From a virus: a stretch of DNA of 24,916 nucleotides. Of the stretch, positions 4,509-24,400 are shown piece after piece. The number at the start of each line of letters is the position of its first letter. Position 1 is the first letter of the stretch. The position numbers and the translations under genes are program-made. The notes under the pieces are model-generated. The model saw nothing but the letters and a program-made list of their open reading frames with translations, was not told the DNA's origin and did not search any database. Location: the IMG/VR virus record IMGVR_UViG_3300047562_001282, positions 1-24,916 of that record. One strand, given 5' to 3'.

Positions 4509-7500
4509 ATGCCACAGAAGACTAATCTTAATGTAGCACCTTATTATGATGATTTCGATGCTAATAAGAACTTTTATAAGGTTCTTTTTAGACCTGGATA
4601 TTCGATTCAAACTAGAGAATTAACTTCTCTACAATCGATTCTTCAGAATCAAATTGAAAATTATGGTAGGTTTAATTTTAAACAGGGACAGCAAGTAATC
4701 CCTGGAGAAGTTGGACTAAACACCAAATTAGATTATGTCAAATTGTCTTCTGTATCCGAAGTTGCTGTTAGTGAAAACGGTCAAGTTGTCTACAAAAAGT
4801 ACGATATTAAGCAACTAGTGAACACTCAACTCCAGGGATTAAACTCTGGAGTTGTTGCACGCGTGGTAGGAGCAGAATATGGTTCCGAGATAGAAGCAGA
4901 TACTCTATTCGTAAAGTATACAACTAGCGGAGATTCTAATAACGAATCTACTTTTAGACAAGGCGAAACACTAGAAGTAATTAATGGTATTAATACTCCT
5001 CTATTAGTTGTCGGTACAGACGGTAGTGTTTTACCAACAAGCATTAATGTTACAGATCCTATTAGCGGAGAAGTAGAAACCTTCCAAAGTCCAGCAATGG
5101 GATTCTCCACAGCGGTTGATGTACAAGAAGGTGTTTATTTTGTAAATGGATACTTTGTTAGAAATAGCAAACAATTACTTATTGTAGACAAGTATTTTAA
5201 TAGAGCTTCGGCAAAAGTAGGGTTTACAATCTCCGAAAAAATTGTAACTCCAGAAGAAGATTCGTCTCTTTATGATAATGCTAGAGGATTTTCAAATTCT
5301 TCTGCTCCTGGAGCACATCGTTTACAGATTTCTTTGGATATTAAAGCATTTGACTATAATGCTAATACAGATAAGAACTTTATTCAACTTTTACAGATTA
5401 ACAAAGGTGTTGTAGAAAAGCAAGTAAAATCTGCTGACTACACTTTACTAGAGGAAACTCTTGCCAGAAGAACATATGATGAATCTGGAGACTATGTAGT
5501 TGATGATTTTACATTTGATATTCGTGAATACTATCAAAGAAATGGCAATAATGGTGTTTTTGCTTTAGATAACGCTACTGGTTTAGTTAACGAAATTTCT
5601 CCTGTTACAGCAGAAGGAAAAATGCTTCTTGGCGTAAGTCCTGGTAAAGCATATGTAAAGGGTTTTGAAATTGTTAACAAAGAAACTAAGAGTTTAGAAG
5701 TTGATAAAGGAAGAGATACATTATCACGTGACAATGTTACTATCAAATCTAGAGGACTACCAGAATTTAAAATTACTAACGTTTATGGAACTGTCCCTCT
5801 AAACACAGTTGGAGATTCTTTAACTGGATACCCCACAATTACATTTAATAGTGTTTTCAATGATGGTACGATTGGATTTTCTGGACTACAAGATTCTACT
5901 TATTTTAGAACTACAATTGATAGAAGATCTGAGGTATTCGATTTAAAAGATGGCATCAAGACTATCTACGTACAGGTTATTGGCACAATTCCAGCAGAGA
6001 CATCACAACTTCCAAATGAAGTCTGGTTTGTCAATACCAGAGGATCAGGAACAGTTTCTGGTAGAAGTGCTAGAGTTATTGGAAAGGCAATTGTAAATAG
6101 ACCAGAAGTTAACTCGGCAAATGATGCTGTATTTGCTGAACTAACATTGCTTGGAGATAAAAGAGTCTTGGATCAAAGACTCACCGAATATGATACTGGA
6201 GAAGCAGATTTTAGAAGATATGTTTACACGTCACAGTCATCGTTAGAAGCATCAACTTCACCATACGGTTTTATCGTTGACTACAACGAAACTATTTCTC
6301 CAGTTGTTGGCGTAGCAAAACCAAAGAACATTAGACTTGTTAACAGAGGTAGTGGTTTTAATCAAGATACTGATATTGTTCTTTCTAGAGGTAGAACTGG
6401 ATCTAGTGAACCATATAATGCTACATTTGGATTCACGTATTTTAATCCAGTATTTTTCACCAGACTAAAACTAGAAAGACCTTTAGAAGCTGGTAGTTTC
6501 CAAACAGGTCAGTATATTGTTGGTAAAGAAAGTAAAGCATATGGTGTTGTCGAGAATGACACTACAGAAAACTTCAGTGGCAACTCTACTTTATTTGTAA
6601 CTACTCTTTCTGGACAGTTTATCCCTGGAGAAACAATTATCGATGAATCTGATAATGCTATTAAAATTGCTAGGGAAGGAACTATTTCCCACTTTGTTGT
6701 AAATCGTCGTGGTAGTAGCTACGTCGAAGCATCAAACTTAGTAATTAATGGAACTGAGTACGATCAATCAAAGATTGGAATTACCTATTATGGAGGAGCT
6801 GTTGCTATTGTTAGAATTGAAAATAGAGCAGCACTTCAAACTGTATACGCCAAACCACCAGAAGTTACATTCTCTGTTCAACCATCTAGTCTTTCTAACT
6901 ATGCTGTAGTAACACCAGTATTGTTTAAAGATACTGTTCTTACATTTTCTCCCCAAAATGTAAAATCATTCTCTTCAACTTTCAACAATTATAATTTTAC
7001 TGCTGATGTAGACTTTAGTACAACTTCTTATGCTACTTACACTCAAGTAAGTGAATTCACTTTCTTTGGATATAACGGCAGGAAGTACGTTGAGTGTAAT
7101 GGATTTGGTGCTGATTTATCAGGAAGTCTTGTACAAGGAGATATTATTCAGTTTACTGATGAAAATAACAATGTAATTAAAAACGTTGTTCAGCAAGTTA
7201 CTTCACCTGAAGGCATTGACAAGTCACGAATTTACTTAGAATATGCTTTACCAGCAAACGTAACTAATGCCGCTGTTATTAGACTAAGACCTCGTATTGA
7301 TAACTCAACAGGAACATTAGTATTTCCAACTGGTAGCAAGCAAGTTGCTTCACTGGTTGCTGATTCTACAGATACCAAATTTAAGTATTATGCTAGAAAA
7401 GACTTTGTAACTGAACTATCTTCCAGTGGAGGTAACATTACGTTTACAGCACAGTTACCAGTTGGAACTCAAAAGTTTGTTGATTTTACAGAAGAAAATT

Positions 7501-10500
7501 TCCTTGTTACTGTTCTAAGTAAAGGATCTTCCACAGTTGTCGATGATGGTGATGTTGTTTACATCGATCCTAGATATATTGAAGTAGAAGAATCAACTGT
7601 TACTGCTGGAGAAGTTGCTTCTGGTGCTCTTAGAATTAAGAATTTACCATCAGATTATTTCGGTACTATTGTTCCTGGTGGTACATATCCAACTCTTAAG
7701 CTAACAGCAACAATTCAAATTGAAAAAGCAAGACCAAGATTAAAGACTGCTATTAAGAATAAGAGAGTCATTGTTGTCTCTAGTGGAGATCGTGTAATTC
7801 CCCTAAGAGGTCAAGATTACGATTCTGAAACTATTGAAACATTTTCATATTCTGATGTTTATAATCTCAAGTATATTTACGAGGGTACTACCACTAGTCC
7901 ACCATCAGTAGATCCAGCTGGCAATCTTGTTAGCGGTACTGATGTAACGTACAAATTTACATTTGACGATGGACAAAGAGATACACATTATGATGTTTCT
8001 AGAATTATTCTAAAACCTGGATTTGATGCTCCTACTGGTCAATTAGTAATTGCTTTTGATTATTTCGAGCATTCAGTTGGAGATTTCTGTACGGTCGATT
8101 CTTATGTACACCAGGCAGGAGTTCCAGCAGAAGAAATTCCTCTATTTAATTCCGCTACAAATGGAATTATTTCTCTTAGAGATTCTATTGACTTCAGACC
8201 AAAGGTAGATGGCGATACTACGATTACTGGATTCCAGAACAAGTCAGTTGTTTCGGAATTTGATACTAGAGATTACATTACCTTTATCGGTACTGGTGGT
8301 ATTGCTACACTAACACCAGCAGCAGATCCAAACCTTCCATATACAGCATCATTCACTGAAAAGCAATACTTAGACAGAATTGATGGTGTTTTCTTAACTA
8401 AAAAGGGTGATTTTATTATTAAGGAAGGCAATTCTTCATTAAACCCAACCAAACCAGAAGCAGTCGATGATGCCGTTGCTCTAGCATATTTACACATTCC
8501 TGCTTACACTAAGAGCAGCAAAGATGTGAGGGTTGTCCCTGTTGATAACAAGAGATATACTATGAGAGACATTGGTAAGCTGGAGAAGCGTATCGAACGT
8601 CTTGAATACTATACTACCTTAAGCATTCTTGAGCAGCAAGCATTAAACATGCAAGTTAAGGATGAAGTAGGTCTAGAAAGATTTAAGTCTGGTTTCTTCG
8701 TTGATAATTTTGAAACTCACAAAGCAGGTAATCTTAAGTCTATTGATTATCTATGTGCTATTGACACCCAGCAATCGGTTCTCCGTCCACCTTCAAAAGA
8801 AGATAGTTTTGTATTGAAGGAAATTAATACTAGAAACGATCAACGAGAAGTAGCAGGATATGTCATTAATGATGGCGTTGTCACACTTCCATTCCGTTCC
8901 GTGGAATTACTAGGAAATAGCAACGCTACCAAAACTATTAATCCAAATCCGTTTGTAGTTATTCAGTATGTTGGAGAATCGGTAATTATTCCACAGCAAG
9001 ATTCTTGGTATGATCAAAGTGTAGAACCACTAGTAGTAGATTCAAATACTAAATTAAATTCTATCTTCCTGGCAAAAGATGATGTTGCTGATGCTTACTC
9101 AAGCATTTATAACTCATTTGTTGTTAACTGGGTAGGCACAAATCAATCATTCTTACCTATCGAATCTTTTGCCAATATCAACAGCGAAGATATTGTATCA
9201 ACTATTAATACTGCTTCGGTAGCAAGTTCTTCTAATGTAAGTCCACAGAACAATGAAGTTGGTAAAGGTATTAATACAAGATCTATTAATGGAAATATTG
9301 TAGCGACCTCTCTACAATTCTTTGCCAGATCTATTCCTGTCAAATTTGTAGTTAATCGTCTAAAGCCAAACACCAGAGTATATCTCTTCATGGAAGGCAA
9401 GAATGTTAACCGCTGGGTCGTCCCTGACAGCAGATTTACTGGTGTAGCAGGCAACTCATCATCGGCGTTTGGATCGCCTCTTATAACCGATTCTAACGGC
9501 AATCTGAGTGGCATTTTACTAGTACCAGCTGGTTTACCACCAGTATCTAATACAAGATGGACAGGTAACGTAGATACAGTTCTTTATGATGAAGCTGGAG
9601 AAGAAATCAGATTAACAACTGGCATCAAAACTATTCGTTTTACTTCAAGTTCTGATAACGCTAATACAGCAGAAGTAGATTCTTATGCCGAGGTTAAGTT
9701 TTATGCTTCTGGTATTTTACCAGAAAATCCAGGATCTATTACATCAACCGCTGCTGCTTTCTTCAAAGCAAACGAAGGTGTTCAGTTAGTAGATAGCAAC
9801 ACTGATAATCCAATCAAACCAAATCCACTAGCACAATCATTCAGAATTGAAAACTTTGATGGTGGCGTAATGGTAACGGGAGTTGATTTGTTCTTTGCTT
9901 CTAAGAGCCAAAACATTCCTATTAGAGCATATTTAACGAACGTAGAAACTGGTAAGCCAGGTAAATTCATTATTCCTGGAACACAGGTTTCATTAACTCC
10001 AGAAACATATCTTAAAGTTTATGTAACTGGAGACAGTGAAACTATTACAATTTACAAAAACGAGTATGTAACTGGAAGAACATCTAACGCTAGAGGACCA
10101 ATTGCTAAAGTCTTTGATGGCAATAACATTAGAGTTGGAGATGATTCAAGTACATTCTTCGAATTAAACAAAGAGCAAGTATATACTCTCGTTCTCGGTA
10201 ATCACAACGGAACAAGTTTCCAACAAAATGAATCAATAACTATCCCTTCTATTACTAGCTACAACGCCAGAAATAACACAACTGTAGGTATGTTTATTGC
10301 CAGAGATGCTGGAAAAATTGTAGATTTAAGAGTTACCAACGTAGGCGACAATTACGAGAGTGCTTCTATTACTATCGAAAGTCCCCAACTTCCTGGTGGT
10401 TCTGCCGCTACTGGTGTTATTGGAGTTTCTGATGGAAAGATTTTTAGTGCCGAAGTTGCTCTAAGTGGTCGTGGATATACCGAAGCGCCTTCTGTTGTAA

Positions 10501-12587
10501 TTCGTGGTGTTGGTCAAGGTGCTACTGGTGCTGTGATTGAGTCTGTCATCGAGATTGACACTCCAGCAGTAAGGATGGGTGTTGCCACAGATGATGCTGG
10601 AGTAACTCCATCTACTACGCCAACTAGATTTAATTTCAAACATCCAGTTTATCTACAAAATAATACAGATTATGCTCTCGCCATCGAAACCGATTCAATC
10701 GAATATGAGATTTGGGCATCTAGATTAGGAGAAACAGAAATTGCCACCAGTAATGTGGTAACTACACAACCACTGCTTGGTTCTGTTTATAAGTCACAAA
10801 ATACAGATAATTGGACTGAAGACTTATTTGAAGATATTAAGTTCCAACTATATCGTGCCGAATTTAATATAAATGGCGAAGCAGAAATAGAAGTTACAAA
10901 TGAAAATCTAGGATACGAACTCTTAAGATCTTCACCCTTTGAAACTAGCGTAAGATCTGCTACTAACGCTACATCAAAATTATTCAAAAATAATAATGCT
11001 ATTGTCAAAGTTTATCATAGAGACAATGGTTTCGAAGATCGTGGCAATTCTTACGTATTCTTCCAGAATGCTGATGATGTTGGTGGTATTTCGGCAGTAA
11101 CTTTAAATGGATCTCTGTTTAGAGTAGCAAATGGTGGTGTTGACTATTACAATATTACATCTCTTAATAGAGCTGGATCTAGCGTAGTTGGTGGAGGAAA
11201 CAAGGTATTGGCAACATACAATAGAAAGTATGAAAAACTTTATGCTCAAATTCCATATCTTCAATTAGATGGAACTAAGATCGATACCTTTGTACAAACA
11301 ACTAATATTATTCCAGTAGATTCTAATACACAGAATTATACTTCATACTCCCTGGGTGATTATGAAAGAACGTTCTTGAACGAAGAGCATATTTTCACAA
11401 ACCAGAAAGTTATTGCTTCTAGAATTAATCAAGTAATGAATGGTCTTTCACAATCATTGAAATACAAGTTCCGCTTATCTTCTAGAAATCAAGCGTTATC
11501 TCCTGTTATTGATCTAAGAACTGCTTCCGTTAAAACAGTAAGCAATCGTGTTGAAAACAGCACTGGTTTCGAAAATCGTTTTGGTAAGAGAGATCAAGTT
11601 ATTAGATTCTTACCTCTCTTCACTCTAACTCTGTCGGTCGGTGGCGCTAATGCTGGTCAGGTGAGGTCTAATAGAGTATTAGTTGGACAATCATCTAAAG
11701 CAGAAGGATTTATTACAGAATATGAAAACAATGATGCTGTTATTAGATTAAGAACTCAAACTCCATTCCAACAGGGAGAATCTTTAAAACTTTACAATGA
11801 ACAAGGCGTTGAAGTAGAAAGTATTAGTATTTCAGTAACTAACATTTCCGAAATACCATTTAACTTTAGTAAGGGTTCGAATGTTATCGCTTTCTATCCT
11901 CAAAATGTTGATGTAAATTACACTAACAAGATTAATGGTAAAGTTGTTCTTTGGGATGCCGAAGATAAGATTCTCATTATTGAAAATTCTTACAATCCAA
12001 TTGCTGGCGATGAAACTTCTTCAATCACCAACGATAGTGTATTTGTCAGAAATTCAGATCCAGCAGAGCAACAATCAGATATCTTTAGAGTTGGAGATGT
12101 TGTTCAATCTACTGGAGACGACAATCCAATTTATGTAGAAATTGCTTCTATGGATTGGACCACTGGTATTGATTATGTTCCAGAGACTGGTGCTTTAAAT
12201 AGTTCATCTCTTGCTAAGTATGTAACTAAAGAAATTACAATTAACAGTTCTGGTACTTCAATTAATGTAAGAACAACTGTTAATGTAACTGATACTGAAA
12301 ATATTAAGATTTTCTATAAACTTAGAGAGTCATCAAGATCTTCTAATTTTGATGACATTAACTGGATTCCATTTAATGTTGATGGTAATCCAGATAATAA
12401 CGATATTGCTACAGCATCAAATTCAATTTCTGGTCAATTTGAAAAGCAAGAAGATTATCAGGAATTAATTTACAGTGCTTCGAATCTTTCCGAATTTACA
12501 TCATTTGCTATTAAAATTATTATGAAGACCGACAACCCAGCATATGTACCCAAAGTACAAGATTTACGTGTAGTTGCTTCTTACTAA
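4509..12587 (+). CDS. Giant DUF4815-domain virion protein (2692 aa), baseplate/tail appendage connector
   Basis: The N-terminus has the hallmarks of the DUF4815 family of phage virion proteins: YYDDFDANKNFYKVLFRPGY and RELTSLQSILQNQIE (residues 13-50), then EGVYFVNGYFV and SSLYDNARGFSNSSAPGAHR (about 195-275). Further conserved-looking blocks are MRDIGKLEKRIERLEYYTTL (about 1350-1370, probably helical), PLAQSFRIENFDGGVMVTG (from 1773) followed by VDLFFASKSQNIPIRAY, then PVYLQNNTDYALAIETDS and LGSVYKSQNTDNW (about 2030-2100), and an IKIIMKTDNPAYVPKVQDLR end. Between these lie beta-rich insertions: GSGF/GSSY modules near 606-645 and 727-760, a PGETIIDESDNA segment near 704-724, and a GSGY-type double module at 1938-2016 placed just before the PVYLQ block. 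The family's exact role is unsettled; a link between wedge and fibres is inferred from its place between gp8 and the fibres. The start is set by GGAG four bases upstream. Its stop overlaps the next start. Confidence 0.88.
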   Translation: MPQKTNLNVAPYYDDFDANKNFYKVLFRPGYSIQTRELTSLQSILQNQIENYGRFNFKQGQQVIPGEVGLNTKLDYVKLSSVSEVAVSENGQVVYKKYDIKQLVNTQLQGLNSGVVARVVGAEYGSEIEADTLFVKYTTSGDSNNESTFRQGETLEVINGINTPLLVVGTDGSVLPTSINVTDPISGEVETFQSPAMGFSTAVDVQEGVYFVNGYFVRNSKQLLIVDKYFNRASAKVGFTISEKIVTPEEDSSLYDNARGFSNSSAPGAHRLQISLDIKAFDYNANTDKNFIQLLQINKGVVEKQVKSADYTLLEETLARRTYDESGDYVVDDFTFDIREYYQRNGNNGVFALDNATGLVNEISPVTAEGKMLLGVSPGKAYVKGFEIVNKETKSLEVDKGRDTLSRDNVTIKSRGLPEFKITNVYGTVPLNTVGDSLTGYPTITFNSVFNDGTIGFSGLQDSTYFRTTIDRRSEVFDLKDGIKTIYVQVIGTIPAETSQLPNEVWFVNTRGSGTVSGRSARVIGKAIVNRPEVNSANDAVFAELTLLGDKRVLDQRLTEYDTGEADFRRYVYTSQSSLEASTSPYGFIVDYNETISPVVGVAKPKNIRLVNRGSGFNQDTDIVLSRGRTGSSEPYNATFGFTYFNPVFFTRLKLERPLEAGSFQTGQYIVGKESKAYGVVENDTTENFSGNSTLFVTTLSGQFIPGETIIDESDNAIKIAREGTISHFVVNRRGSSYVEASNLVINGTEYDQSKIGITYYGGAVAIVRIENRAALQTVYAKPPEVTFSVQPSSLSNYAVVTPVLFKDTVLTFSPQNVKSFSSTFNNYNFTADVDFSTTSYATYTQVSEFTFFGYNGRKYVECNGFGADLSGSLVQGDIIQFTDENNNVIKNVVQQVTSPEGIDKSRIYLEYALPANVTNAAVIRLRPRIDNSTGTLVFPTGSKQVASLVADSTDTKFKYYARKDFVTELSSSGGNITFTAQLPVGTQKFVDFTEENFLVTVLSKGSSTVVDDGDVVYIDPRYIEVEESTVTAGEVASGALRIKNLPSDYFGTIVPGGTYPTLKLTATIQIEKARPRLKTAIKNKRVIVVSSGDRVIPLRGQDYDSETIETFSYSDVYNLKYIYEGTTTSPPSVDPAGNLVSGTDVTYKFTFDDGQRDTHYDVSRIILKPGFDAPTGQLVIAFDYFEHSVGDFCTVDSYVHQAGVPAEEIPLFNSATNGIISLRDSIDFRPKVDGDTTITGFQNKSVVSEFDTRDYITFIGTGGIATLTPAADPNLPYTASFTEKQYLDRIDGVFLTKKGDFIIKEGNSSLNPTKPEAVDDAVALAYLHIPAYTKSSKDVRVVPVDNKRYTMRDIGKLEKRIERLEYYTTLSILEQQALNMQVKDEVGLERFKSGFFVDNFETHKAGNLKSIDYLCAIDTQQSVLRPPSKEDSFVLKEINTRNDQREVAGYVINDGVVTLPFRSVELLGNSNATKTINPNPFVVIQYVGESVIIPQQDSWYDQSVEPLVVDSNTKLNSIFLAKDDVADAYSSIYNSFVVNWVGTNQSFLPIESFANINSEDIVSTINTASVASSSNVSPQNNEVGKGINTRSINGNIVATSLQFFARSIPVKFVVNRLKPNTRVYLFMEGKNVNRWVVPDSRFTGVAGNSSSAFGSPLITDSNGNLSGILLVPAGLPPVSNTRWTGNVDTVLYDEAGEEIRLTTGIKTIRFTSSSDNANTAEVDSYAEVKFYASGILPENPGSITSTAAAFFKANEGVQLVDSNTDNPIKPNPLAQSFRIENFDGGVMVTGVDLFFASKSQNIPIRAYLTNVETGKPGKFIIPGTQVSLTPETYLKVYVTGDSETITIYKNEYVTGRTSNARGPIAKVFDGNNIRVGDDSSTFFELNKEQVYTLVLGNHNGTSFQQNESITIPSITSYNARNNTTVGMFIARDAGKIVDLRVTNVGDNYESASITIESPQLPGGSAATGVIGVSDGKIFSAEVALSGRGYTEAPSVVIRGVGQGATGAVIESVIEIDTPAVRMGVATDDAGVTPSTTPTRFNFKHPVYLQNNTDYALAIETDSIEYEIWASRLGETEIATSNVVTTQPLLGSVYKSQNTDNWTEDLFEDIKFQLYRAEFNINGEAEIEVTNENLGYELLRSSPFETSVRSATNATSKLFKNNNAIVKVYHRDNGFEDRGNSYVFFQNADDVGGISAVTLNGSLFRVANGGVDYYNITSLNRAGSSVVGGGNKVLATYNRKYEKLYAQIPYLQLDGTKIDTFVQTTNIIPVDSNTQNYTSYSLGDYERTFLNEEHIFTNQKVIASRINQVMNGLSQSLKYKFRLSSRNQALSPVIDLRTASVKTVSNRVENSTGFENRFGKRDQVIRFLPLFTLTLSVGGANAGQVRSNRVLVGQSSKAEGFITEYENNDAVIRLRTQTPFQQGESLKLYNEQGVEVESISISVTNISEIPFNFSKGSNVIAFYPQNVDVNYTNKINGKVVLWDAEDKILIIENSYNPIAGDETSSITNDSVFVRNSDPAEQQSDIFRVGDVVQSTGDDNPIYVEIASMDWTTGIDYVPETGALNSSSLAKYVTKEITINSSGTSINVRTTVNVTDTENIKIFYKLRESSRSSNFDDINWIPFNVDGNPDNNDIATASNSISGQFEKQEDYQELIYSASNLSEFTSFAIKIIMKTDNPAYVPKVQDLRVVASY

Positions 12588-12787
12588 TGAAATATCTTAA
12601 AGTAGAAGGTCACGAAAATTTATATCGTGATATTGAAACGGGAGCGATTATTAACACTGATAAACCCGCTCCTAGAAACTTCTCTCGAACATTCAACAAT
12701 GCTCTGGAAGATATAAATACTTTGAAGGAAGAACTATCTGAAATTAAACAGCTTCTTAGAGAGATTGTAAGAAATGCCAGCAATTAA
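12587..12787 (+). CDS. Small coiled-coil protein (66 aa) coupled to the DUF4815 gene
   Basis: The start shares one base with the preceding stop (TAATG), and there is no ribosome binding site before it, so translation is probably coupled to the giant gene. Its end overlaps the next gene by 14 bases. The N-terminal half reads VEGHENLYRDIETGAIINTD, a pattern I associate with small conserved proteins of marine and T4-like phages that have no assigned function. The C-terminal half (about residues 38-63) is a charged helix with heptad-like spacing of I, L, L, I, L, I, suggesting an oligomeric coiled coil. A role as chaperone or minor virion component is only a guess. Overlap at both ends and a recognisable N-terminal motif make it a real gene rather than a chance ORF. 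Confidence 0.8.
   Translation: MKYLKVEGHENLYRDIETGAIINTDKPAPRNFSRTFNNALEDINTLKEELSEIKQLLREIVRNASN
12712..12719 (+). promoter_or_regulatory. Exact T4-type late box TATAAATA inside the 66-aa gene
   Basis: TATAAATA lies within the 66-aa coding sequence and ends 55 bases before the ATG of the first fibre gene. The spacing is like that of the boxes before gp8, the DUF4815 gene and the last fibre gene, so it may give the fibre its own late transcript. A chance match in AT-rich coding DNA is possible. Confidence 0.5.
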
Positions 12788-15700
12788 CGTCGCCAGAACA
12801 GATACCTTTGAAGTTCAAAGGCAAAAGATTAACCAGATTGGAGCACAAATTTTTAGCATTTCCCAGGGAGGAAGTGATCTATCAACTGGTTTGTTGAAAC
12901 TAGGTGATGGCACACAAACAGATCCATCGTTATCATTTACTACAGATAGTACTTTAGGTATTTACAAACCAGATACTAGTACATTGGGGTTTGTTGTTAA
13001 TGGGAAGAAAGTATATGATTATTCATTATCTGGAGTAAATTTTTATAATGATGTAGTTTTAGAGAAAAAATCTTTATTTGATGAAGGTATTCTTATTTCG
13101 GCAAATGGACAAAACTATGACCTGGGGACATATGAGGATGTTCCATTAACGGGAGGGACTGGATCTGGAGCTACAGCAACTATAGAAGTAGCAGAATATA
13201 CAGGTGCCATCACTAATGTTGGATCTGATTATTTCGATGGTTCTTATTCTAATATTCCTTTGCTTGGAGGAAGTGGAACTGGAGCTTTAGCAAGTTTCGA
13301 TGTTTCTGGAATTACAGGCACAGTTCTTAATAGTGGTTTAAATTATGTTCCAGGTTCATACATCAACGTTCCATTACAAGGAGGAACTGGATCTGGAGCA
13401 TTAGCTGATATTAGTATTGTCGGAACATCATCTTTTACGGGATCAATTTCTTCTGGTGGATCTGGATATACGAATGGTACATATCAAACTGTACCCTTAT
13501 TAAACATTCCTATACAGACTTTCTCCGTCACTTTAGTTGGTGGGGTGTATGCAATTGACGGAGTTTCCCAGCAGACAATTAGTTTGGAAAAAGGAAATAC
13601 TTATAGATTTGATCTGTCCGATTCCAGTTTGTCAACAGAATTTTTTAATTTAAGAAATACATCAAATCAAGCTTTACCAGCATTATTTTTTAGCATTACT
13701 AGATTTGGTTCTGATGGAGAATCTGGTGCTTTTTTACAAGTTGTTGTTAAAGATGAAGCTCCTGTTCAATCAGTCAGATATGTTTCACAAATTAATGGTT
13801 TAATTGGAGGAACTGTTAATATAATTTCAGGAACTCCTGGTCAAGGTGGAAGTGGGGCTACTGCTACATTAGTAGTATCTGGTGGTGTAGTTACTAGTGT
13901 TATTAATGAATCGTATGGATCTGGTTATGAAGCAAATGACACTTTAGAAATCTACTCTGGAAATGTAGGAGGAACTGGATCTGGTTTCGAATATACTGTA
14001 GATTCTTTAGAATATACTGGTCAAGTAGATCAAATCACTATTGTAGATCCTGGAAACAATTATTCCCAGTTTGATGAATTAAGTATTGATGATTCTGATG
14101 TTGGTGGTGGAGGCGGATCTGGATTTTTATATGTAATTACTGAAGAGAATCCAAATACATTTAGTAACTTTCAAATAACAGATAAAGGATCTGGATATCA
14201 ATTAGGCAATGTTTTGGGATTAGCATCAACAACTGCTAATTTCACCACGACTTTTGGTTTCGAAGCTTCTTTTGTAATAAGCTCAGCGTCTAGCGTTAAT
14301 GTCGGAGACCGAGTAATTGTTGTATCTGGTCCTGGACAACTACCATCAGGAACAACAGTTACAAATGCAGATACTGTTACAAACACTATAACAGTTTCAG
14401 ACGCTCCATCAATTACTGGCAATGCTACAGTAAGATTTATTCCACCATATGGAGGAAATGGAAATTTTGCTTATTCTATCAATTCTTTTGGAAGTGTAGA
14501 ATCAGTTTCTATTACCAATGGAGGAAATGGATATGAAGTTGGTGATGTACTTAGTGCTGATTCAGTAAACTTATCATCTTCAATTGAATACATTGTAACT
14601 TCGGAAGATTTTTCACTAGTAACATTTAGTGGATCGTACCCTAGTAGCACATTTTCAGTCGGAGATATTTTAAATAATAAGGGAGGATTAGTAAATGCTG
14701 TTTCTATAGCACAGTCATCCACATTACCCCCAACCGTAGTAAACAAACCATCTGTAACGGTTACTGCTGGTTCGAGTGTATTAACAATGACCAGCACTTC
14801 TGGAATTGTAGCTTCAATGTTTGTTAGTCAAAACAACATTGGTGGAGGAACTATTGATGATGCTGTTACTGTTGTGAGTGTAGATAGTTCTACACAAATT
14901 ACCATTTCGAAGGTTGGATTAATCAGTGGTACAGCAGATTTAGACTTTACTAGTAACGAAAGTGCCACATATACACCAGTAGCTTCAACTTCACCATTTA
15001 GCGATGGTTCTGGAGCAACGTTTACAGTTGTGAGAGCATCTGATGGATCTGTAATATCAGTTACTCCAGTAAATGGAGGATTTAATTATCTTCAAAATGA
15101 TGGACTTACTATATCTGGTACTTTAGTAGGAGGATCTTCTCCCGCCGATGACATTGAATTAACGGTTTCGTCAATCAGTGGCGAAATTGTAGATATGGAG
15201 GTATTCGCTGTTAATTCTACTAATGGAAATTTAGATTCTATTTTAATTACTCGTAATACAACTCTTAATAATATTTCTGGAAATGCTATTCCTTCCAATA
15301 TTTTAGTAAAACAAGGAACTGAATATACTATTTCTAGTACCGATCACACACAGATGAGATTTTTGATCGACACTGGTTCTGGTCCACAACTAACGCCAGA
15401 TTTGACTTTGTATTTAAATGACACATATGCTTTCAATACGGAAGACTCATCAATGTCTGGTCATGTATTGAAATTTTCAAGATTTCCAGATGGACCAAAT
15501 TCGCCAAGCAATTTATCTAGGACTACTAATCTTTTAGTACAATCTACCACAATTACAGTTTCTGATACAACTGGCATTCTGGAAGGAATGTCAGTAACTA
15601 CTGTAAGCGGAGATGGGTCTGTTGCTATTGGAACTATTGTATCTGAGGTTGTAGATTCTACCACATTAGTTTTAAGTAGGTTGCCAATTGTTTCGGGAAC

Positions 15701-17876
15701 TACTAGTTTAAATTTTTCAGGAGTTCCATATGAAGATGGAGTGACTATTGATGGTCCCAGTACGCTGCTAAAAATTACAGATTCGACTCCATCTACATTA
15801 TATTACTATTGTCAAAACCACGAAGATATGGGAGGTTCTGATGGTCAAGAAGGTGTAATCACCATCTCATCAAACAATCCAAGAGTTTTTGGATCTGGGT
15901 TTACATTAGCTGTTAGTGATATTGAATCAGTAGATTCAGTATCTATGGATATTGATACTGGAAAAGTAACAGCAGATTCTATTGAAGGTCAAACTGCCAA
16001 TTTTGCTTCTGGTATTGTTTCTGGAAATTGGGAGGCATCTGGTTTGAGATGTTCGACGATTTCCACTAATGTAATTACATCCACAACTGGTGTTACGGTA
16101 AGTTCAGCAACTATCAACTTAGCAGGAACCACTTCAATCGGATCTACAATTTCATTAGCGCCATCTACTGGTAACATCACAACTTCTGGAGTTTTAAAGA
16201 CTACTAATACCTTAAACGTAAATGATAAGATTAAAATTATCGATAACGTAATTGAAACTACCAGTGGCAATGATCTACTATTAAAACCATTTTTTGGTAG
16301 ACTAGCCAAAGTAGATTCTGTTGGGGCATTTGTTATTCCGTCTGGTAATAATGATCAAAGACCAGGAAGTACCCTTAGACAAAATGGAGCTATTCGTTTC
16401 AATACTGATACACAACAGTATGAAGGGTATAGTGAATCTACGTCATCGTGGTCTTCTTTGGGTGGAGTAAGAGATATTGATGGGAATACTTATATTACAG
16501 CAGAGCAAAGTGTTGGATCTAATGATAACAGATTATGGTTTTATAACGATGGTTTAAATACCGTTAGATTTACTAAACAGTACCTGGAATTTATGGGTGC
16601 TAAAAGAATCAGATCTTTAAATACTTCTGCTCCAGCATATGTAGATTGGCAGGCACAAACTCCAGTAACTTCTGGAACATATTTAAAGTATCTTTCTGGG
16701 GTTTATGAAGTTGTAGCAGCGGGCACAACTGCTAGTGTAGGCAATGAACCCACTGATACTTCTGGAAACAATTTTTTGAATGGAACAGCTACATTACGTT
16801 ATAATACTACAGCAATTTCTTCTTTGGTTTTTGAAGAAATTTCGGATATTCGTATAGATCCAGTAGTAAAATCATCTACACTAACAGTTAACGCCGAACT
16901 TAGATTTTCTAAAAATACTATTTCATCATTAACAGATGATCTTGTTATTCAACCATTTACAGAAAAAAAAGTTGTTGTTAACACTACATCTTCTTTAGTT
17001 ATTCCTGTTGGCGACAATAATCAAAAAGGATCTCCAAGCACAGGTTCTATCAGATATAATACATCCAATCTAGCGTTCGAAGGATATGATGGTGTTAACT
17101 GGGGGTCTCTGGGTGGAGTTAAAGACGTAGATCAAAACACTTATATTATTCCAGAAACTGCTCCAGGACAAAATGAGAATATTTTATATTTCTACAATGA
17201 CAACAATAACACACTAAGATTAACTACCACTCAATTAGAATTTGATACAGTTGATACCATTGTATCTTCAGATACAGATACTTTAAATATTAATGTATCC
17301 ACAGTAACCTTAGATAATCTAGCTACAACTATTGATAATACTGATGTAAATACTACCTTTATTTCATCATCGAAAACTAATTTTGATTTTGGTCTTTCTT
17401 CTGGACTAACAAATGATCATCTACTAAGACTCACTAATGCTGGAAGTGTAATATTTAATCTCGGATATGGTACAGGAACTGATAATAACCTCACTGTATT
17501 AAATTCAACTTTAACCAATTTTGAATTAGCTAAGCTTAGAGTCAGAACAACATCTTTATCTTTAGTAAGAGGAACAAGCAATACTGGAAACTTTACTGTA
17601 TATACCCCATCCATCGAAGCATCTGCTAAGTTATTCCTCACTGCTCACAATTTAACCACTGGTGATAAGGAAACTGTCGAATACTCTGTAATAGATAAGG
17701 GATCAGATGTAATATTTACAGATTATAATAATATAAAAACTGGAGCAGAATTAATTTCTGCTGTATTTGATATCGATCCATCAAATAATGTTCGAATGAC
17801 AGTTACGGCAAATAGTGCTCTAGCTACGGGAAATCAAATATCGATTACTTTGGTAAGACACATCACAAAGAGGTAA
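12774..17876 (+). CDS. Tail-fibre-like protein (1700 aa) with beta repeats and cupredoxin-like domains
   Basis: The N-terminus, INVARTDTFEVQRQKINQIG followed by LKLGDGT and LGIYKPDTSTLGF, is of the type seen in large fibre-like proteins of T4-like cyanophages and probably anchors it to the tail. Order of parts: three 38-residue Gly-rich repeats plus a partial fourth (118-243); a degenerate cupredoxin-like domain (248-352); GSGY-type beta modules (about 355-475, 560-605, 740-800); three copies of a 'ttITVSdttGI..GM.V' beta module (about 497-556, 660-727, 917-982); an intact cupredoxin-like domain (about 845-1031) with ligands H897, C1013, H1016 and M1019; a Ser/Thr-rich beta segment; and two copies of a shaft module with IRF/YNT...EGY...W.SLGGV.D.D.NTYI (1152-1280, 1376-1497). 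It ends RHITKR. Host contact is inferred; no receptor domain is recognised. The ribosome binding site is weak. DNA is notably AT-rich. Confidence 0.85.
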   Translation: MPAINVARTDTFEVQRQKINQIGAQIFSISQGGSDLSTGLLKLGDGTQTDPSLSFTTDSTLGIYKPDTSTLGFVVNGKKVYDYSLSGVNFYNDVVLEKKSLFDEGILISANGQNYDLGTYEDVPLTGGTGSGATATIEVAEYTGAITNVGSDYFDGSYSNIPLLGGSGTGALASFDVSGITGTVLNSGLNYVPGSYINVPLQGGTGSGALADISIVGTSSFTGSISSGGSGYTNGTYQTVPLLNIPIQTFSVTLVGGVYAIDGVSQQTISLEKGNTYRFDLSDSSLSTEFFNLRNTSNQALPALFFSITRFGSDGESGAFLQVVVKDEAPVQSVRYVSQINGLIGGTVNIISGTPGQGGSGATATLVVSGGVVTSVINESYGSGYEANDTLEIYSGNVGGTGSGFEYTVDSLEYTGQVDQITIVDPGNNYSQFDELSIDDSDVGGGGGSGFLYVITEENPNTFSNFQITDKGSGYQLGNVLGLASTTANFTTTFGFEASFVISSASSVNVGDRVIVVSGPGQLPSGTTVTNADTVTNTITVSDAPSITGNATVRFIPPYGGNGNFAYSINSFGSVESVSITNGGNGYEVGDVLSADSVNLSSSIEYIVTSEDFSLVTFSGSYPSSTFSVGDILNNKGGLVNAVSIAQSSTLPPTVVNKPSVTVTAGSSVLTMTSTSGIVASMFVSQNNIGGGTIDDAVTVVSVDSSTQITISKVGLISGTADLDFTSNESATYTPVASTSPFSDGSGATFTVVRASDGSVISVTPVNGGFNYLQNDGLTISGTLVGGSSPADDIELTVSSISGEIVDMEVFAVNSTNGNLDSILITRNTTLNNISGNAIPSNILVKQGTEYTISSTDHTQMRFLIDTGSGPQLTPDLTLYLNDTYAFNTEDSSMSGHVLKFSRFPDGPNSPSNLSRTTNLLVQSTTITVSDTTGILEGMSVTTVSGDGSVAIGTIVSEVVDSTTLVLSRLPIVSGTTSLNFSGVPYEDGVTIDGPSTLLKITDSTPSTLYYYCQNHEDMGGSDGQEGVITISSNNPRVFGSGFTLAVSDIESVDSVSMDIDTGKVTADSIEGQTANFASGIVSGNWEASGLRCSTISTNVITSTTGVTVSSATINLAGTTSIGSTISLAPSTGNITTSGVLKTTNTLNVNDKIKIIDNVIETTSGNDLLLKPFFGRLAKVDSVGAFVIPSGNNDQRPGSTLRQNGAIRFNTDTQQYEGYSESTSSWSSLGGVRDIDGNTYITAEQSVGSNDNRLWFYNDGLNTVRFTKQYLEFMGAKRIRSLNTSAPAYVDWQAQTPVTSGTYLKYLSGVYEVVAAGTTASVGNEPTDTSGNNFLNGTATLRYNTTAISSLVFEEISDIRIDPVVKSSTLTVNAELRFSKNTISSLTDDLVIQPFTEKKVVVNTTSSLVIPVGDNNQKGSPSTGSIRYNTSNLAFEGYDGVNWGSLGGVKDVDQNTYIIPETAPGQNENILYFYNDNNNTLRLTTTQLEFDTVDTIVSSDTDTLNINVSTVTLDNLATTIDNTDVNTTFISSSKTNFDFGLSSGLTNDHLLRLTNAGSVIFNLGYGTGTDNNLTVLNSTLTNFELAKLRVRTTSLSLVRGTSNTGNFTVYTPSIEASAKLFLTAHNLTTGDKETVEYSVIDKGSDVIFTDYNNIKTGAELISAVFDIDPSNNVRMTVTANSALATGNQISITLVRHITKR
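13125..13502 (+). repeat. Tandem 38-residue beta repeats in the first fibre
   Basis: GTYEDVPLTGGTGSGATATI (residue 118), GSYSNIPLLGGSGTGALASF (156) and GSYINVPLQGGTGSGALADI (194) repeat at exactly 38 residues, and a partial fourth, GTYQTVPLL, starts at 235. The pattern of turn, strand, GGxGxGA turn and strand suggests a stacked beta shaft. Confidence 0.85.
13515..13829 (+). other. Degenerate cupredoxin-like domain, all four copper ligands lost
   Basis: Residues 248-352 of the first fibre align with the intact domain further on: NTYRFDLSDSSLSTEFF matches DTYAFNTEDSSMSGHVL, and VRYVSQINGLIGG matches LYYYCQNHEDMGG without a gap. The ligands become H to E289, C to S338, H to N341 and M to I344. 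It should therefore be a structural, metal-free copy. The fold assignment is by motif only. Confidence 0.6.
15306..15866 (+). other. Cupredoxin-like domain with complete type-1 copper ligand set, split by an insertion
   Basis: Within the first fibre, YAFNTEDSSMSGHVLKFS supplies H897 and LYYYCQNHEDMGG supplies C1013, H1016 and M1019, the H...C-x2-H-x2-M arrangement expected of a type-1 (blue) copper centre. H897 and C1013 are 116 residues apart; the matching positions of the degenerate copy are 49 apart. The difference of 67 fits the inserted beta module at about 917-982. Copper binding is inferred, not shown. Confidence 0.6.
16227..17264 (+). repeat. Duplicated fibre-shaft module (two copies)
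   Basis: Copy 1 (16227-16613) and copy 2 (16899-17264) share, in order, LLLKPF/LVIQPF, FVIPSGNNDQ/LVIPVGDNNQ, a Pro-Gly-Ser segment, AIRFNT/SIRYNT, WSSLGGVRDIDGNTYI/WGSLGGVKDVDQNTYI, LWFYND/LYFYND and LEF. The copies have diverged at the DNA level, so the duplication is old. Between them lies an unrelated 95-residue segment. Confidence 0.85.
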
Positions 17877-17882
17877 ATTTAA

Positions 17883-18398
17883 ATGGCAGAACAATTAAAA
17901 ACATTTGATTCTTTTGGTGGATTTTCTGTGGGAAACACCACTTTAATTAGCAATCAAAAGAGTCTCACAAACGTAAATACGCTAGAAGTTAAGAATTCTG
18001 TATTCAATGATGCTACTTCTACTCATTACATTTTAAGGGGTAGTACTACAGCTGTTTTAGCACTTGATAACGTAGGAACTCAAATTACCTTACCATCAAA
18101 TACCATCAATTTTATTACTGCTCATATTGTTGGCGTTAATACCACTGGAGCTGGACATCTATCACAAAAAATAGAATCGGTTGTTTCTGTAAGTTCTAGT
18201 GGTGGCGTATTAGAACTATCAAATTTAATTACAACAATTAAAGACAGCGTTCCAAGTGGAGAGACTTGGACAGTTGAATTATTTGACACTGGCGCTGTTA
18301 ATAGATTTAGTTATTCTGTAAGCAAAACTGGTGGATCTCCAGGTCAAACTGTGAAATGGTTGGCATACGTTCAAGTAGTCAGTATTAACTGGGCTTAG
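17883..18398 (+). CDS. Small conserved virion protein (171 aa), function unknown
   Basis: The protein starts MAEQLKTFDSFGGFSVGNTT and contains NVNTLEVKNS, HYILRGSTTAVLALD and NTINFITAHIVGVN, then ends in WTVELFDTGAVNRFSYSVSK and a WLAYVQVVSINWA tail. I recognise the general type as a small protein found next to fibre genes in T4-like cyanophages, but no function is known to me. It looks all-beta, has no signal peptide or membrane segment, and has no Cys. The start is fixed by AGAGG in the end of the preceding gene, about nine bases before the ATG; the gap is only six bases and no separate promoter box was seen, so it is probably co-transcribed with the first fibre. A fibre-associated or adaptor role is inferred from position. 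Confidence 0.85.
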   Translation: MAEQLKTFDSFGGFSVGNTTLISNQKSLTNVNTLEVKNSVFNDATSTHYILRGSTTAVLALDNVGTQITLPSNTINFITAHIVGVNTTGAGHLSQKIESVVSVSSSGGVLELSNLITTIKDSVPSGETWTVELFDTGAVNRFSYSVSKTGGSPGQTVKWLAYVQVVSINWA

Positions 18399-18447: not shown

Positions 18448-21400
18448 ATGAGTTTTCAGTTAAATTCTGACAGGGAACAACTTGTAGGCGTTGATTCTAC
18501 TATCATCGGTACTAGTTCGGTTCGTATTAGATCAGGAGCTGGGGAAGATCAAAGAGAGATTTTCCAAGCAAAAATCGACAACACATCTGGATTACCTCGT
18601 GTTGGTATTAACAGAACTGGAAGGCGAGTAGATTCTATCACGGTAACATCTGCTGGATTGGGGTATACAGATACTCCAACTATCAATATCAGTGCTCCTA
18701 CTTTACCTGGAGGTATTCAAGCAGTTGCTTCAGCTGTAACAGATTCCAATGGAAGAATTATTTCAATTGGTATTGATAATCAAGGTGATGGTTATGAATT
18801 TCCACCAACAGTAACTATAACTGGCGGAAATGGATCTGGTGCTGCTGCTACATCCGCTTTAGATACTATTGATTTCGAATTGGATGTTAATGGTGCTATC
18901 AGAACATCAACATCGATTATTTCTGATACAGCAAATATTTTAAATCTTGATATTGATAATCTTGTTACTCCAGATGTCAAGTATCGAGCAGCAGATTTTA
19001 AAACTTGGGCAAACGGAACTGGTGTAAGATTTCCTTCTTCACCAACACCAGTAAATAAAAATGATTATTTCTATGAAGGGTCCAATATTTACCAAGCATT
19101 AGATACTGGTATTACTGGACTAATACCACCTTTCCATGAAGATGGTATTGAATTAAATGGAGATGTTAGATTTAAACATATTGGATATAGAGTAAATTCT
19201 CCAGATCTTCCTTTCTTTGGCGAGAGTGGTGATTCTGGAATCTTCCCCCGTTCCATCACCCCTCTTCTCGGAGATAGATCGGATAAAGTTGCCACAACAG
19301 AATACGTTCTAAACTTAGCAACAAATGACGTTGGTGGACGTATCTATGTTTCTGAGCAAATTGGAGATGACGACAATGATGGTCGTTCACCAGTTAATCC
19401 AGTTAGAACAATTAAAAGAGCATGTCAGTTAGCATGGGAAACTCCTGGAGTTAAGGAGTCAATCATTATCGCTGGTGGTGAATATCTGGAAGATAACCCA
19501 ATTTCAATTCCACCAGATGCTTCTATTGTAGGCGATAACCTTCGTCTTGTAATTATCAGACCAGAAAATATTGGTAAACATATTTTTAAATTTGGTGATA
19601 AAAACTATGTTATTGGTGTAACTTATCAAGATAAAGTAAACTCATCAGGTGCTTCAGTTGGTACTTGGGACTTTGCTATGGTCTTTGACGATAAGCAAAG
19701 AATTATTTACGATAAAACTGCTAACGGAGATTTTGGAACCAATTTCACAATTGGTCACCAATTCTTTGGTCCAGATTCTTTCCAAGCACTATTTAGTTTT
19801 AACGATGCTGGATTAACGGCATTATCAGCTGGAATCACGATGTTTGGTGCTAACACTGGTACTACCGCCAGAGTTGGAACTGTAGAATTTGACATCAATG
19901 ATCCACAAAATCCAGATGCTTATAAAGAAGGTAGAATCACCGACTTAACTAGAGTCTCTGGTGCTGGTTTCCAAAACTCAGAAACTTTCTATTATGGCGG
20001 AACTGGCACGACTAAATGGGCGCCATCAACACAATACCAAATCGGAGACATTGTTTGGTCTGACGCTATATTACCAGGAGGTGCTTTAGTTGCTTATGTT
20101 TACACTGTAACCACTGCTGGTATTTCTGGAACAGTTCAGCCTACACATACATTTGGTATTGAACCAAATGGAACAGCGGCATTTGAATACACAAGACAAG
20201 CATACTCTGTAAACTTATCTCAAATCGAATCCACTAGAGCTGAAGGAGAGGTAGTATTTACAGGGGATGAATATGAAACTGTAAATCCTTTACCAATCAC
20301 GAGAATTGATTTTAGTCTACAAGGAACATTTAATGATGGATTCCAAAATGATATCTACGGAGATTCTGAAGATCTTGGTGGTATTGTATTCTATACAAAC
20401 CCATTAGAAGGTGCTAATAATATTCACGATTTTAAAGAAGGAGAAGAAATTGAAATTACTGGAATGCCATCAGCACCAGATGATCTTAGCTTCTTAAACG
20501 GTAAACATAGAATTTACAAAGTTATAGAAGATGCCGATGGTCGTGCTAGAAGATTTGTACTTCCAAAGAAACTTGATCCAGCATTAAATTTAAATGAAAT
20601 TGATGACTGGGATCCAGATTCTGTTGGAGCAGTTGTTAGTGTAAAAACTTATTCAAAATCTGTAACACTATCGTTACTAAACTCACCAAATAAGTTTCCT
20701 GTAGCTCAGCCTGTAGCAAGAAGATATCAAGATGCTTGCTTATTAATCAGAAATAATATTAATTATATTGCTGATGAAGTTGTTCGTAAAATTAACGACC
20801 AATTCAAAAAAGAATACTTTTCAGTATATGAAATCAGTGGAAATACTTTCAAAATCTATCTAGGAACTTCCAGATTTGCTCACAATTACGTAAATGGAGG
20901 AACAGTAAGATTTAACAACACTAACTATAGCATTACCAATTTCGAATATGATCATGATGGAACTGGTGAGGCGACTATTACCACAGCAACAAATGCTGGA
21001 CTATCTGAAGATGATACTGTAAAGCTATCTGGTATAGTAGTATCTTGCATCATCGATGGTGTAGTAACCGAGAAAACTTACCCAAGTTTCAACATTCCTG
21101 TTAGTGATCAAAAGTGTCGTAGAGATATTGGTCACTTCTTAAATGCTATTATTCAGGACTTAGAATTTGGCAGCAACTATAACACAATTAACGCTGCCAG
21201 AAAATATTTTGCTGCTGGTCAAGTTGAATACGTAGATTATGAAATTATCCAAACTGTTCGTGCTATTGAGTATGCTAGAGAACTAGCAATTTATGCTATG
21301 AGGAAGTGGCGTACTGGAAACGGTACGCCAGTAGATCCAGTATATGTTTCACAATACACAAGTTTAGATCAATATGTAGATCCAACTGTTATTGATGATC

Positions 21401-24400
21401 CAGCATCGCCTGCTTGTGCTAATGTAGCAAGTGCTATTAATACATTATCATATCTGTTTGTAGATATTATTTCCAATCAGGCTTCAGGAACTTATCTCGA
21501 TGGTGCCTATTTGATTGCTAGAAACAGAGATTTTATTGCTGATGAGGCATATCAATTAACCAAACAGCAATATCCTTCATTAGGATTAGATGATGTTGAT
21601 GAGAGAAAGTGCCGTAGAGATATTAATTACATCTTAAGCGGCGTTCTTAGAGACTTAGTTCTTGGCGGAAATGCTGGTTCCGTAAATGCCGCTGAGTTTT
21701 ATTTCCAAGGTACAACTTTAACTGGCGTCCCAGCTTCCGAACTTGGTGCTACTAGATTTGCTTTTACTAAGGTAAGAGATCTATCTATTTTAGCAATGAG
21801 GAATTGGTATCAAAGTGGTGGCGCTGGATCCCAATATACGCCACTATATTCTATTATTCCTCAGTTTACCGATAATACAATCCTCGTAGATCCAGCTGGA
21901 ACTCCTTGGTGTGCTGATGTCGAGGCATCGCTAACAACTTCATTCGAATTAATCGATGGCATTCTAGAATTTGCTGATGATAATACAAGTCCAACTGCTA
22001 TTCAGCCAGGATCAACAGTAAGAACAACAGGTACTCTTTATTCTGGAGATAATGTAATTTCATATCCAGATAACGTTCTTAGAGATGTTAACAATAACTT
22101 TGTAACTATTCGTGCTGTATATGACGATCTTCCAATTATTTCAGCATCTCCATACACACAAAATGCTTCAATTATTTCGAAACTTGGTGGTAGTGGTGCT
22201 CTGATTGATGGATCAAAAGTTAAAAATCCAAACTGCCCTTTCCCTGGTTTATCTGATGGCAGAGCAACATTTCCCAACCAGGGCAAGTCGATGGTTGCCT
22301 CGGCATTTACTATTGTTTCTGAGCAAAATGGTATTGGATATAAGATTATTGAAGATGGTTATGTACAGTTAGTTTCTGTATTCTGTATTTTCTGTGTTGA
22401 TGGCATTCTTGCTGAGTCTGGTGGATATGCCTCGGTTACCAACTCTGCCTCAAACTTTGGTACATACGCTTTAAGATCAAGAGGTTACAGACGAGAACCA
22501 TATGAGTTTGATTCTGGATACACAGCAACTGAAGGTTATCAACGTGCCTTTATTGATGTTGTCTCCGAAAGTATTACTCAGTTTACAGAATTTACTATTG
22601 ATAATATTGGAAGAATTCCTCTTGAGCATTATATTGTTAAGGTTGATGGATACGAATCTGCTGATCTTGATGACGAATACTTTATTGATAAAGTTGAAGT
22701 TCTCAGGGAAGGTCCTCCATATAGAGCAAGAATTACTGTAACAAGCGGTTCTGGAGCGGGTGTTATTCAACTTAGAAATAAATCGACGGGATTGTTAGCT
22801 TCTCCTGCAGAATTAACCAGCAAAAATATTGCATTACACAGACCATCCATCGTTAACTCATCTTCCCACACATGGGAATTTGTTGGATCTGGAGTTGATT
22901 ACAATGCTCTACCAGAAAACGGCGGACTTAAAATAGATAGCAATGAGCAAGTGTCGGAAGATTATGGTAGAACATATGTATCTGGTACTGACGAACTTGG
23001 TGACTTTAAGGTTGGTACGTTTGCTAAAATTGAAAACAGAACTGGCAACATTACCTTTACTGGTACAGTTTCGATTTCAGAAGTTGAGTTCCTCAAACTA
23101 AGGGGTGGTGATGTAGTTGTTACTGGATTTGACAACTCAAATACTCTCGGTGGTGCTCTATCATCTGACTCTAAATTACCGACACAAAAAGCGGTTAGAG
23201 ATTATATCATTAATAATTTGGGTCAGTATCTGAATAAAAACTATTCAACAAACCCTGTCCCAAGAGCTCTAGTAGAATTAACAGATGAGGGTAAAATTTC
23301 TGAAAGTCAATTGCCAGCTAGCAGTCCAATTGAAGTTTATAGCGTTGATACAGAGCAAGAAAGATTATCTTTAGAAGGTGTTAATGCTGGTGACATTGTA
23401 ATTGAATCTGGTGCTGCTTATATTTTAAACACAGATTCAGACTCTCTGTTCTTGGGTATTAATGTAGATTCTTCACTACAGTTTACTGTAAATGATATCT
23501 TCACAGGTAGCACCACTAATGGCAAAATTCAGTTAACTGAGTACAGACCTGGGGTTATTAAAACAATTACTGTCACGGATCCTGGATCTGGTTATTCAAC
23601 ATCAAATCCACCTACTGTAGTAATTAATGATAATGGTACACAAATAGGACACGTTCCAGCAGTAGCAAGAGCAATAGTTGCTGGGGGAGAAATTGTTGCT
23701 ATCGAACTAGTTCTTTCTGATAGCTACATCGGAGGTAAAGGATATTTAGGTACTCCAACAATTTCATTTACAAACACTAGCGGAGGAGCTGGAGCAACTG
23801 CCACAGTTTCTTTAGAAAGTAGACTCTATGGAGATATCGTTAATAATATTAAAATAGAAGCGATTGATACTATCCAATCAAGTGATGTCCCAGCAGAAAC
23901 TGTTGATGTTATTAGAGTAGTTAATACTTCTGGAAGTAATCCAAATAATTGGGTTTCTCTTAATACTCAAGCAGTTCAAGCTAATGCCATTGAGGGTGTT
24001 ATTGGAACAGGAAACCTCGCTGAAAATGCTACTCTAGAAGCAAACTCAAATACTGTTCTTTATGGAGATTCTTCCTACAAGAAAGTTGTAAAATCTTTCC
24101 GTGGAACCGAGACTAGATACTTCATCAAAACAGCAGAAGCAAGTGGTGCCGATTATCTAGTATTCGAATCAACTTCTAATAATCAAACTGGATTATTGTT
24201 GGAAGGACATTCGGTAACTAATGTCACTGGGGTACAAGCAGGAACCACAATCACCCAGATTGCCACGTTTACTGTTGGACAAACAACTTACAAAAGAGTT
24301 ACATTAAGTGATGGTCTAACTAGTTCTGTACCTGTAGGTACTGTTGTAGAATTTATTAGACCAGCATCGCCAGTTTTAATTGAATCCAATTTAAGAACTT

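Follow-up and report, generated by a model that had tools for sequence, protein, structure and literature searches.

The stretch of DNA analysed here (hereafter the window; 24.9 kb, 24,916 nucleotides) comes from IMG/VR and belongs, by gene content and locus order, to a T4-like marine cyanophage of the Kyanoviridae type. All genes and domains described below lie on its plus strand. A gene for a Gp8-type baseplate wedge protein (positions 2609-4450; Pfam PF09215, phrog_438) is followed by one for a 2692-aa DUF4815/VrlC-type baseplate-associated protein (4509-12587), whose orthologues are annotated as 'virulence associated protein' or VrlC, and by a small virion structural protein (12587-12787; phrog_473), a conserved neighbour directly upstream of the gene under study. 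The latter (12774-17876) encodes a fibre-like virion structural protein of 1700 aa with two cupredoxin domains. Directly downstream are a 171-aa virion structural protein (17883-18398; phrog_5449) and a long tail fibre gene (18448-24915; phrog_5342, tail fiber protein) that runs off the window. An identical order was observed in S-H9-2, S-MbCM7, S-CAM4, Syn1, S-RIM32, S-PM2 and others. The 1700-aa product matched the PHROG profile phrog_6005 ('virion structural protein') with 1742 bits and also phrog_32294 ('baseplate wedge subunit'); the profile match and the conserved locus order place it in the phrog_6005 family. Its Kyanoviridae orthologues are annotated just as 'virion structural protein', and virion proteomics of S-SM1, S-PM2 and Syn9 lies behind many annotations of this kind in the group (PMC3037559). 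Going by annotation, we take the 1700-aa protein to be present in the virion.

The locus differs in some isolates. In Synechococcus phage S-B43 (L004) the fibre protein has 1092 aa and opposite-strand genes precede the fibre gene, which indicates that the locus is rearranged and the N-terminal domain missing. In Prochlorococcus phage MED4-213 (L018) an unannotated cupredoxin match lies between two annotated baseplate-wedge genes; since the P-HM1 orthologue is a single gene for 2425 aa, the MED4-213 gene is split.

The second cupredoxin domain of the window protein (D2) occupies nucleotides 15306-15866, which correspond to residues 845-1031 of the ORF, and carries a complete H-C-H-M set. An earlier sequence-only reading had proposed a full type-1 copper pattern in this interval, formed by H897, C1013, H1016 and M1019, and the ORF translation places the four residues and both motifs where that reading had put them. 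The first motif, SMSGHVLKFS (residues 893-902), contains H897 (codon 15462-15464); the ligand loop YYYCQNHEDMGG (residues 1010-1021; 15801-15836) contains C1013, H1016 and M1019, with codons starting at 15810, 15819 and 15828, respectively. These residues provide the His, Cys, His and axial Met of a putative type-1 copper site at the cupredoxin positions. The whole protein has just two cysteines and six histidines (858, 897, 1016, 1549, 1625 and 1696), the pattern H-x(35-140)-[YF]C-x2-H-x2-M was recreated in none of 20,000 shuffles of its sequence, and no further C-x2-H-x2-M was found in the six frames of the window. The loop spacing is C-x2-H-x2-M in amicyanin and C-x2-H-x4-M in plastocyanin; the window D2 thus shares the amicyanin spacing and differs from that of plastocyanin. 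The distance from H897 to C1013, 116 residues, is more than twice that of plastocyanin.

An AlphaFold2 model of D2 built with 58 homologues reached a pLDDT of 95.4 and a pTM of 0.87. In this model, H897 (domain residue 53) is located just ahead of strand 55-58, C1013 (residue 169) is the last residue of strand 164-169, and H1016 and M1019 (residues 172 and 175) lie in the loop preceding the last strand, 184-186. The predicted placement of the ligands along the fold is that of a cupredoxin. The long His-to-Cys distance results from a beta-rich repeat domain of about 70 aa nested in D2 (approximately residues 912-983; 15507-15722), recognised from the D2 profile and six predicted strands and spanning roughly residues 68-139 of D2, between H897 and C1013. 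Positions ~60-131 of the D2 profile match, on their own, two other stretches of the protein, residues 486-555 (14229-14438) and 642-729 (14697-14960). Relatives of D2 without the insert exist, and in insert-free copies of the other cupredoxin domain (D1) the His-to-Cys spacing is mostly 45-64. Cupredoxins, among them copper nitrite reductases, rusticyanin and laccases, were numerous in the Foldseek list for D2, a result blurred by the nested domain that interrupts D2; the best viral match was an ACG-2014e structural protein (E 2e-20).

D1 (residues 246-358; 13509-13847) is homologous to D2 by sequence and ligand-free in the window, with E289, S338, N341 and I344 in place of the H, C, H and M of its relatives; in most two-domain relatives it is the site-bearing copy. 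Its AlphaFold2 model (pLDDT 94.2) has rusticyanin, plastocyanin and amicyanin as top Foldseek matches in the PDB, with E-values of 1e-4 to 1e-3, and the first 30 PDB matches were all of cupredoxin fold, with probability 1.00, E-values from 1e-4 to 3e-3 and TM scores of 0.44-0.60. These predictions place the window domains in the cupredoxin fold superfamily, clearly for D1 and through the weaker but cupredoxin-rich list for D2, and the fibre domain family is almost certainly cupredoxin by fold. The predicted fold and the sister domain D1 thus agree with the sequence-only reading in seeing a cupredoxin-type ligand set within a fibre-like virion protein. The comparison that it had suggested with plastocyanin is better made with short-loop sites of the amicyanin type; that spacing, the nested domain and the homologous ligand-free D1 had all escaped it.

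At the sequence level the relationship to known copper proteins is faint. Four isolated domains gave no match to the Pfam cupredoxin models at an E-value limit of 10, nor did the window (PF00127 included); the best plastocyanin or blue copper protein had an insignificant E-value of 0.18-0.35, and sequence comparison of D2 or D1 with solved structures gave sub-threshold matches alone, mixed with immunoglobulin decoys. Judged by these searches, the family falls outside the Pfam cupredoxin families tested.

The sequence-only reading had supposed that similar motifs might exist in other marine phage proteins, and relatives did appear in several phage groups. Cyanomyoviruses, S-TIM5-type phages and the siphovirus P-SS2 (record PSS2) carry the domain in tail fibre, baseplate and structural proteins, as do pelagiphages (Mosig, Baldr, HTVC028P) and phages of Methylophilales; every relative found was in a marine phage. 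A pattern free of the ligands, NTY[RWH]FDxS[DS], matched at least 599 IMG/VR stretches, with at least 583 relatives among them, and the best 80 of these at least 583 all had H, C, H and M, three of them with one extra loop residue. In cellular genomes (one each of ~85,000 prokaryote species) a closely similar pattern gave four matches. All four lie in phage genes, and a cellular source of the fibre domain was therefore rejected. QCLS01000003.1 (L172; 189,106 bases), filed under the Prochlorococcus AG-418-C09 single-cell genome, carries cyanophage baseplate genes and is of cyanomyovirus size; it is probably a phage from an infected cell.

Conservation of the site was followed in orthologues of the 1700-aa protein. 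The downstream 171-aa gene served as anchor, which avoids a motif-based choice; 148 IMG/VR loci were obtained, and in each of them the gene upstream of the anchor was examined. The anchors were two narrower profiles, since neither the full 18-member set of 171-aa proteins nor D2 gave a profile with a usable conserved stretch; an IMG/VR search with a single window domain as query found no relatives. With 17 phage records added, chosen partly by D2 similarity, the set comprised 155 complete proteins, 133 of them distinct. At least one complete site was present in 125 of the 133 distinct orthologues under the strict pattern, and two others carry one with a slightly altered loop. An HCHM site in D1 was accompanied by a dead D2 in 37 orthologues, by an HCHE site in D2 in 27 and by a second HCHM site in two, while five proteins had HCHM at the D1 position and no D2. 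In proteins with no D1, D2 was HCHM in 34 and HCHE in 18. A dead D1 occurred once with HCHM in D2 (the window) and once with HCHE (L090). The remaining eight had no complete site, the near-variants P-HM1 and MED4-213 included. Site loss in these two proved to be a pattern artefact, given that their loops read YxCxTHGxxM, with three residues between His and Met. Six orthologues (L030, L157, L162, L166, L080 and L085) have no complete site of any kind, so that the site is not strictly essential. Three of them (L157, L162 and L166) are related and show C to S, H to N and M to L changes in the loop, and make up a natural ligand-free control group. The only matches in neighbouring genes were one that is probably false and the one in the split MED4-213 gene.

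The idea of exactly one site per fibre had to be rejected in view of the two proteins with two HCHM sites and the 27 with HCHM plus HCHE; what the sequence counts support is at least one. Within D2, the first His was kept in 83 of 83 domains with a C/H loop and lost in 33 of 44 without it (p 2e-21); this loss of His together with Cys is the behaviour expected of co-ligands. The aromatic strand persists in dead domains: 37 of 43 have YYY or YYF just ahead of where the Cys would be.

The state of one domain was associated with that of the other. Among the 66 proteins whose D1 is intact, 37 had a dead D2, against 7 of the 61 without an intact D1 (Fisher test, 9e-8). Because the relatives are not independent, a tree was made from the C-terminal 640 residues. 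On this tree the intact state changed 12 times in D1 and 15 times in D2, and the window's sister (L019), with D1 intact and D2 dead, is the mirror image of the window. Of eight independent pairs, 4.5 differed in opposite directions vs 0.3 in the same direction when D2 was counted as HCHM; the median p of this test was 0.125 (0.375 for any D2 site), the pairs being too few for significance. In a Pagel-type likelihood test the dependent model was favoured, with p 0.002 when any D2 site was counted and 5e-6 when only HCHM was; under this model D2 was lost at a rate of 1.30 with D1 intact vs 0.05 otherwise, and D1 at 1.86 with D2 intact vs 0.26 otherwise. Domain swapping by recombination between phages could mimic or inflate such correlated evolution. 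Very probably selection keeps the site, and the sequence patterns are good, not final, evidence for at least one loaded domain per chain.

This dependence of loss in one domain on an intact site in the other bears on the suggestion, made in the sequence-only reading, that the site is a relic, and renders it unlikely. Under that view an electron carrier, for example that encoded by phage petE, was captured and the site is conserved by descent alone; a small plastocyanin gene of its own, petE, is indeed present in cyanophages (PMC3037559). On the other hand, the ligands of D2 are lost and retained together, those of the best 80 of at least 583 relatives elsewhere are near-invariant, sites are traded between D1 and D2, PF00127 has no match in the window, and the fibre domain family was found only in phages. 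We regard descent alone as a highly improbable explanation.

A variant of the D2 site deserves separate description. Of 37 domains with Met at the axial position, 34 have two residues between C and H, and of 46 with Glu, 45 have a loop of 5-10 residues. The resulting C-x(5-10)-H-x2-E class, with a C-x(5-10)-H-x2-E-GG loop, was observed in the D2 of 46 distinct proteins (e.g., L011, L031, L073, L074 and L138), usually beside a D1 HCHM site or as the sole site, and the first His is always kept. From the sequences, the coupling of the Met-to-Glu change with a longer loop looks like a different putative metal site and not like decay. Another reading of the family is that the bound metal is zinc, that none is bound in vivo, or that the residues only stabilise the fold, copper being physiologically irrelevant: Cys/His sites readily bind zinc, Glu in place of Met with a longer loop (46 proteins) is a less copper-specific donor, and many copies retain the fold although they lack the ligands. 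However, the axial Met is present in 65 of 65 IMG/VR proteins with a detected D1-position site and in each of the 80 further viral domains (best 80 of at least 583), which fits copper better than zinc, and we consider a metal other than copper, or none, unlikely. Copper is probably the bound metal.

Sequence and prediction show two domains of cupredoxin fold, the ligand set in one of them, and one full site or more in almost every relative; from these we infer copper binding in the virion. Our preferred reading, which we hold to be fairly likely as a whole, is that a cupredoxin domain with an amicyanin-like type-1 ligand set is a building block of the baseplate-proximal fibre of marine T4-like cyanophages. 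Each fibre chain would hold a single copper ion, in one or other of its cupredoxin domains, and the bound metal would lock the ligand loop into the shape required for fibre stability or for contact with the host surface. The domain fold survives without ligands, so the metal is not needed for folding as such. We propose tentatively that every chain requires one metal-locked domain, either for stability of the fibre under marine conditions or for surface contact. Stabilisation and sensing at the cell surface, both options of the sequence-only reading, may each still apply.

Electron exchange with the host surface, oxidant scavenging or redox sensing to trigger the fibre would be another use of the same site. 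To our knowledge, the H-C-H-M type-1 sites of all characterised single-domain cupredoxins serve electron transfer, and most of the hosts are phototrophs whose surfaces are highly redox-active. Nevertheless, there is no second redox centre in the fibre protein or in the sampled neighbouring genes and the loaded position along the chain is exchangeable, which together make a defined electron path unlikely; moreover, the Glu-variant site would strongly shift the potential. A redox module thus seems quite unlikely. Among the putative functions, a metal-dependent fibre module is the most likely and electron transfer the least.

The exchangeable position along the chain would also suit a tag better than a structural linchpin, and the metal could then be part of receptor binding, in a copper version of the 'Ferrojan horse': the copper-loaded domain would be recognised by a component of host copper acquisition or of the outer membrane, or would mimic the cargo of such a component. 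Phages of Synechococcus, Prochlorococcus, SAR11 and Methylophilales, unrelated hosts that share one metal-poor habitat, have the domain in their fibre, tail-fibre and baseplate genes, and iron-binding HxH tail fibres have been proposed for other marine phages (PMC11705849). Against such a lure, no receptor is known, type-1 sites bury their metal, copper uptake varies widely among hosts, and the domain is not restricted to the distal tip. We judge it unlikely.

No description of a cupredoxin or copper site in phage virions was found in the open-access literature, and a working copper site, apparently undescribed so far, may be present in virus particles. A loaded site would mean that abundant ocean viruses infecting Synechococcus, Prochlorococcus, SAR11 and Methylophilales carry copper in their tails; copper would then join the debate on metal-bearing phage tails and offer a handle on how the fibres work, and whether a virion is a blue-copper protein would become a chemical question testable on cultured isolates. 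The exchange of the intact site between D1 and D2 amounts to a natural experiment on what purpose the metal serves. A broader generalisation, for now rather doubtful, is that marine phage fibres form a large undescribed class of copper proteins with at least one metal-loaded cupredoxin domain per chain for host contact, and that the second domain holds a natural C-x(5-10)-H-x2-E site new to characterised cupredoxins.

In comparison with known systems, among the closest counterparts are the Kyanoviridae orthologues (S-RSM4, ACG-2014e, S-H9-1/2, S-MbCM7, Syn1, S-RIM32 and S-PM2), which have the same locus order and the same domains, with 30-52% identity to the window over D2; none is annotated as a cupredoxin or copper protein, and in most two-domain relatives of this family the intact site is in D1, whereas the window protein has it in D2. 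Phage petE likewise encodes a cupredoxin fold in cyanophages (PMC3037559), but as a stand-alone electron carrier of ~110 aa expressed in the host, in contrast to the fibre-embedded domains, which PF00127 misses. The iron HxH fibres of T4 gp37 and Alteromonas phage R22Y ('Ferrojan/Trojan horse' hypothesis; PMC11705849) resemble the window protein in having metal ligands in a receptor-proximal fibre. They hold iron by HxH at trimer interfaces, whereas the window has an intradomain Cys/His/His/Met cupredoxin site, and none of the six His of its 1700-aa protein lies in an HxH. With amicyanin, plastocyanin, pseudoazurin and rusticyanin, the window domains share the predicted beta-sandwich fold, the order of the ligands and their positions; those known cupredoxins are free periplasmic or luminal carriers, while the window domain is embedded in a 1700-aa fibre, and the fibre family differs from the known short-loop cupredoxins in its nested domain, its ligand-free copies and its C-x(5-10)-H-x2-E variant.
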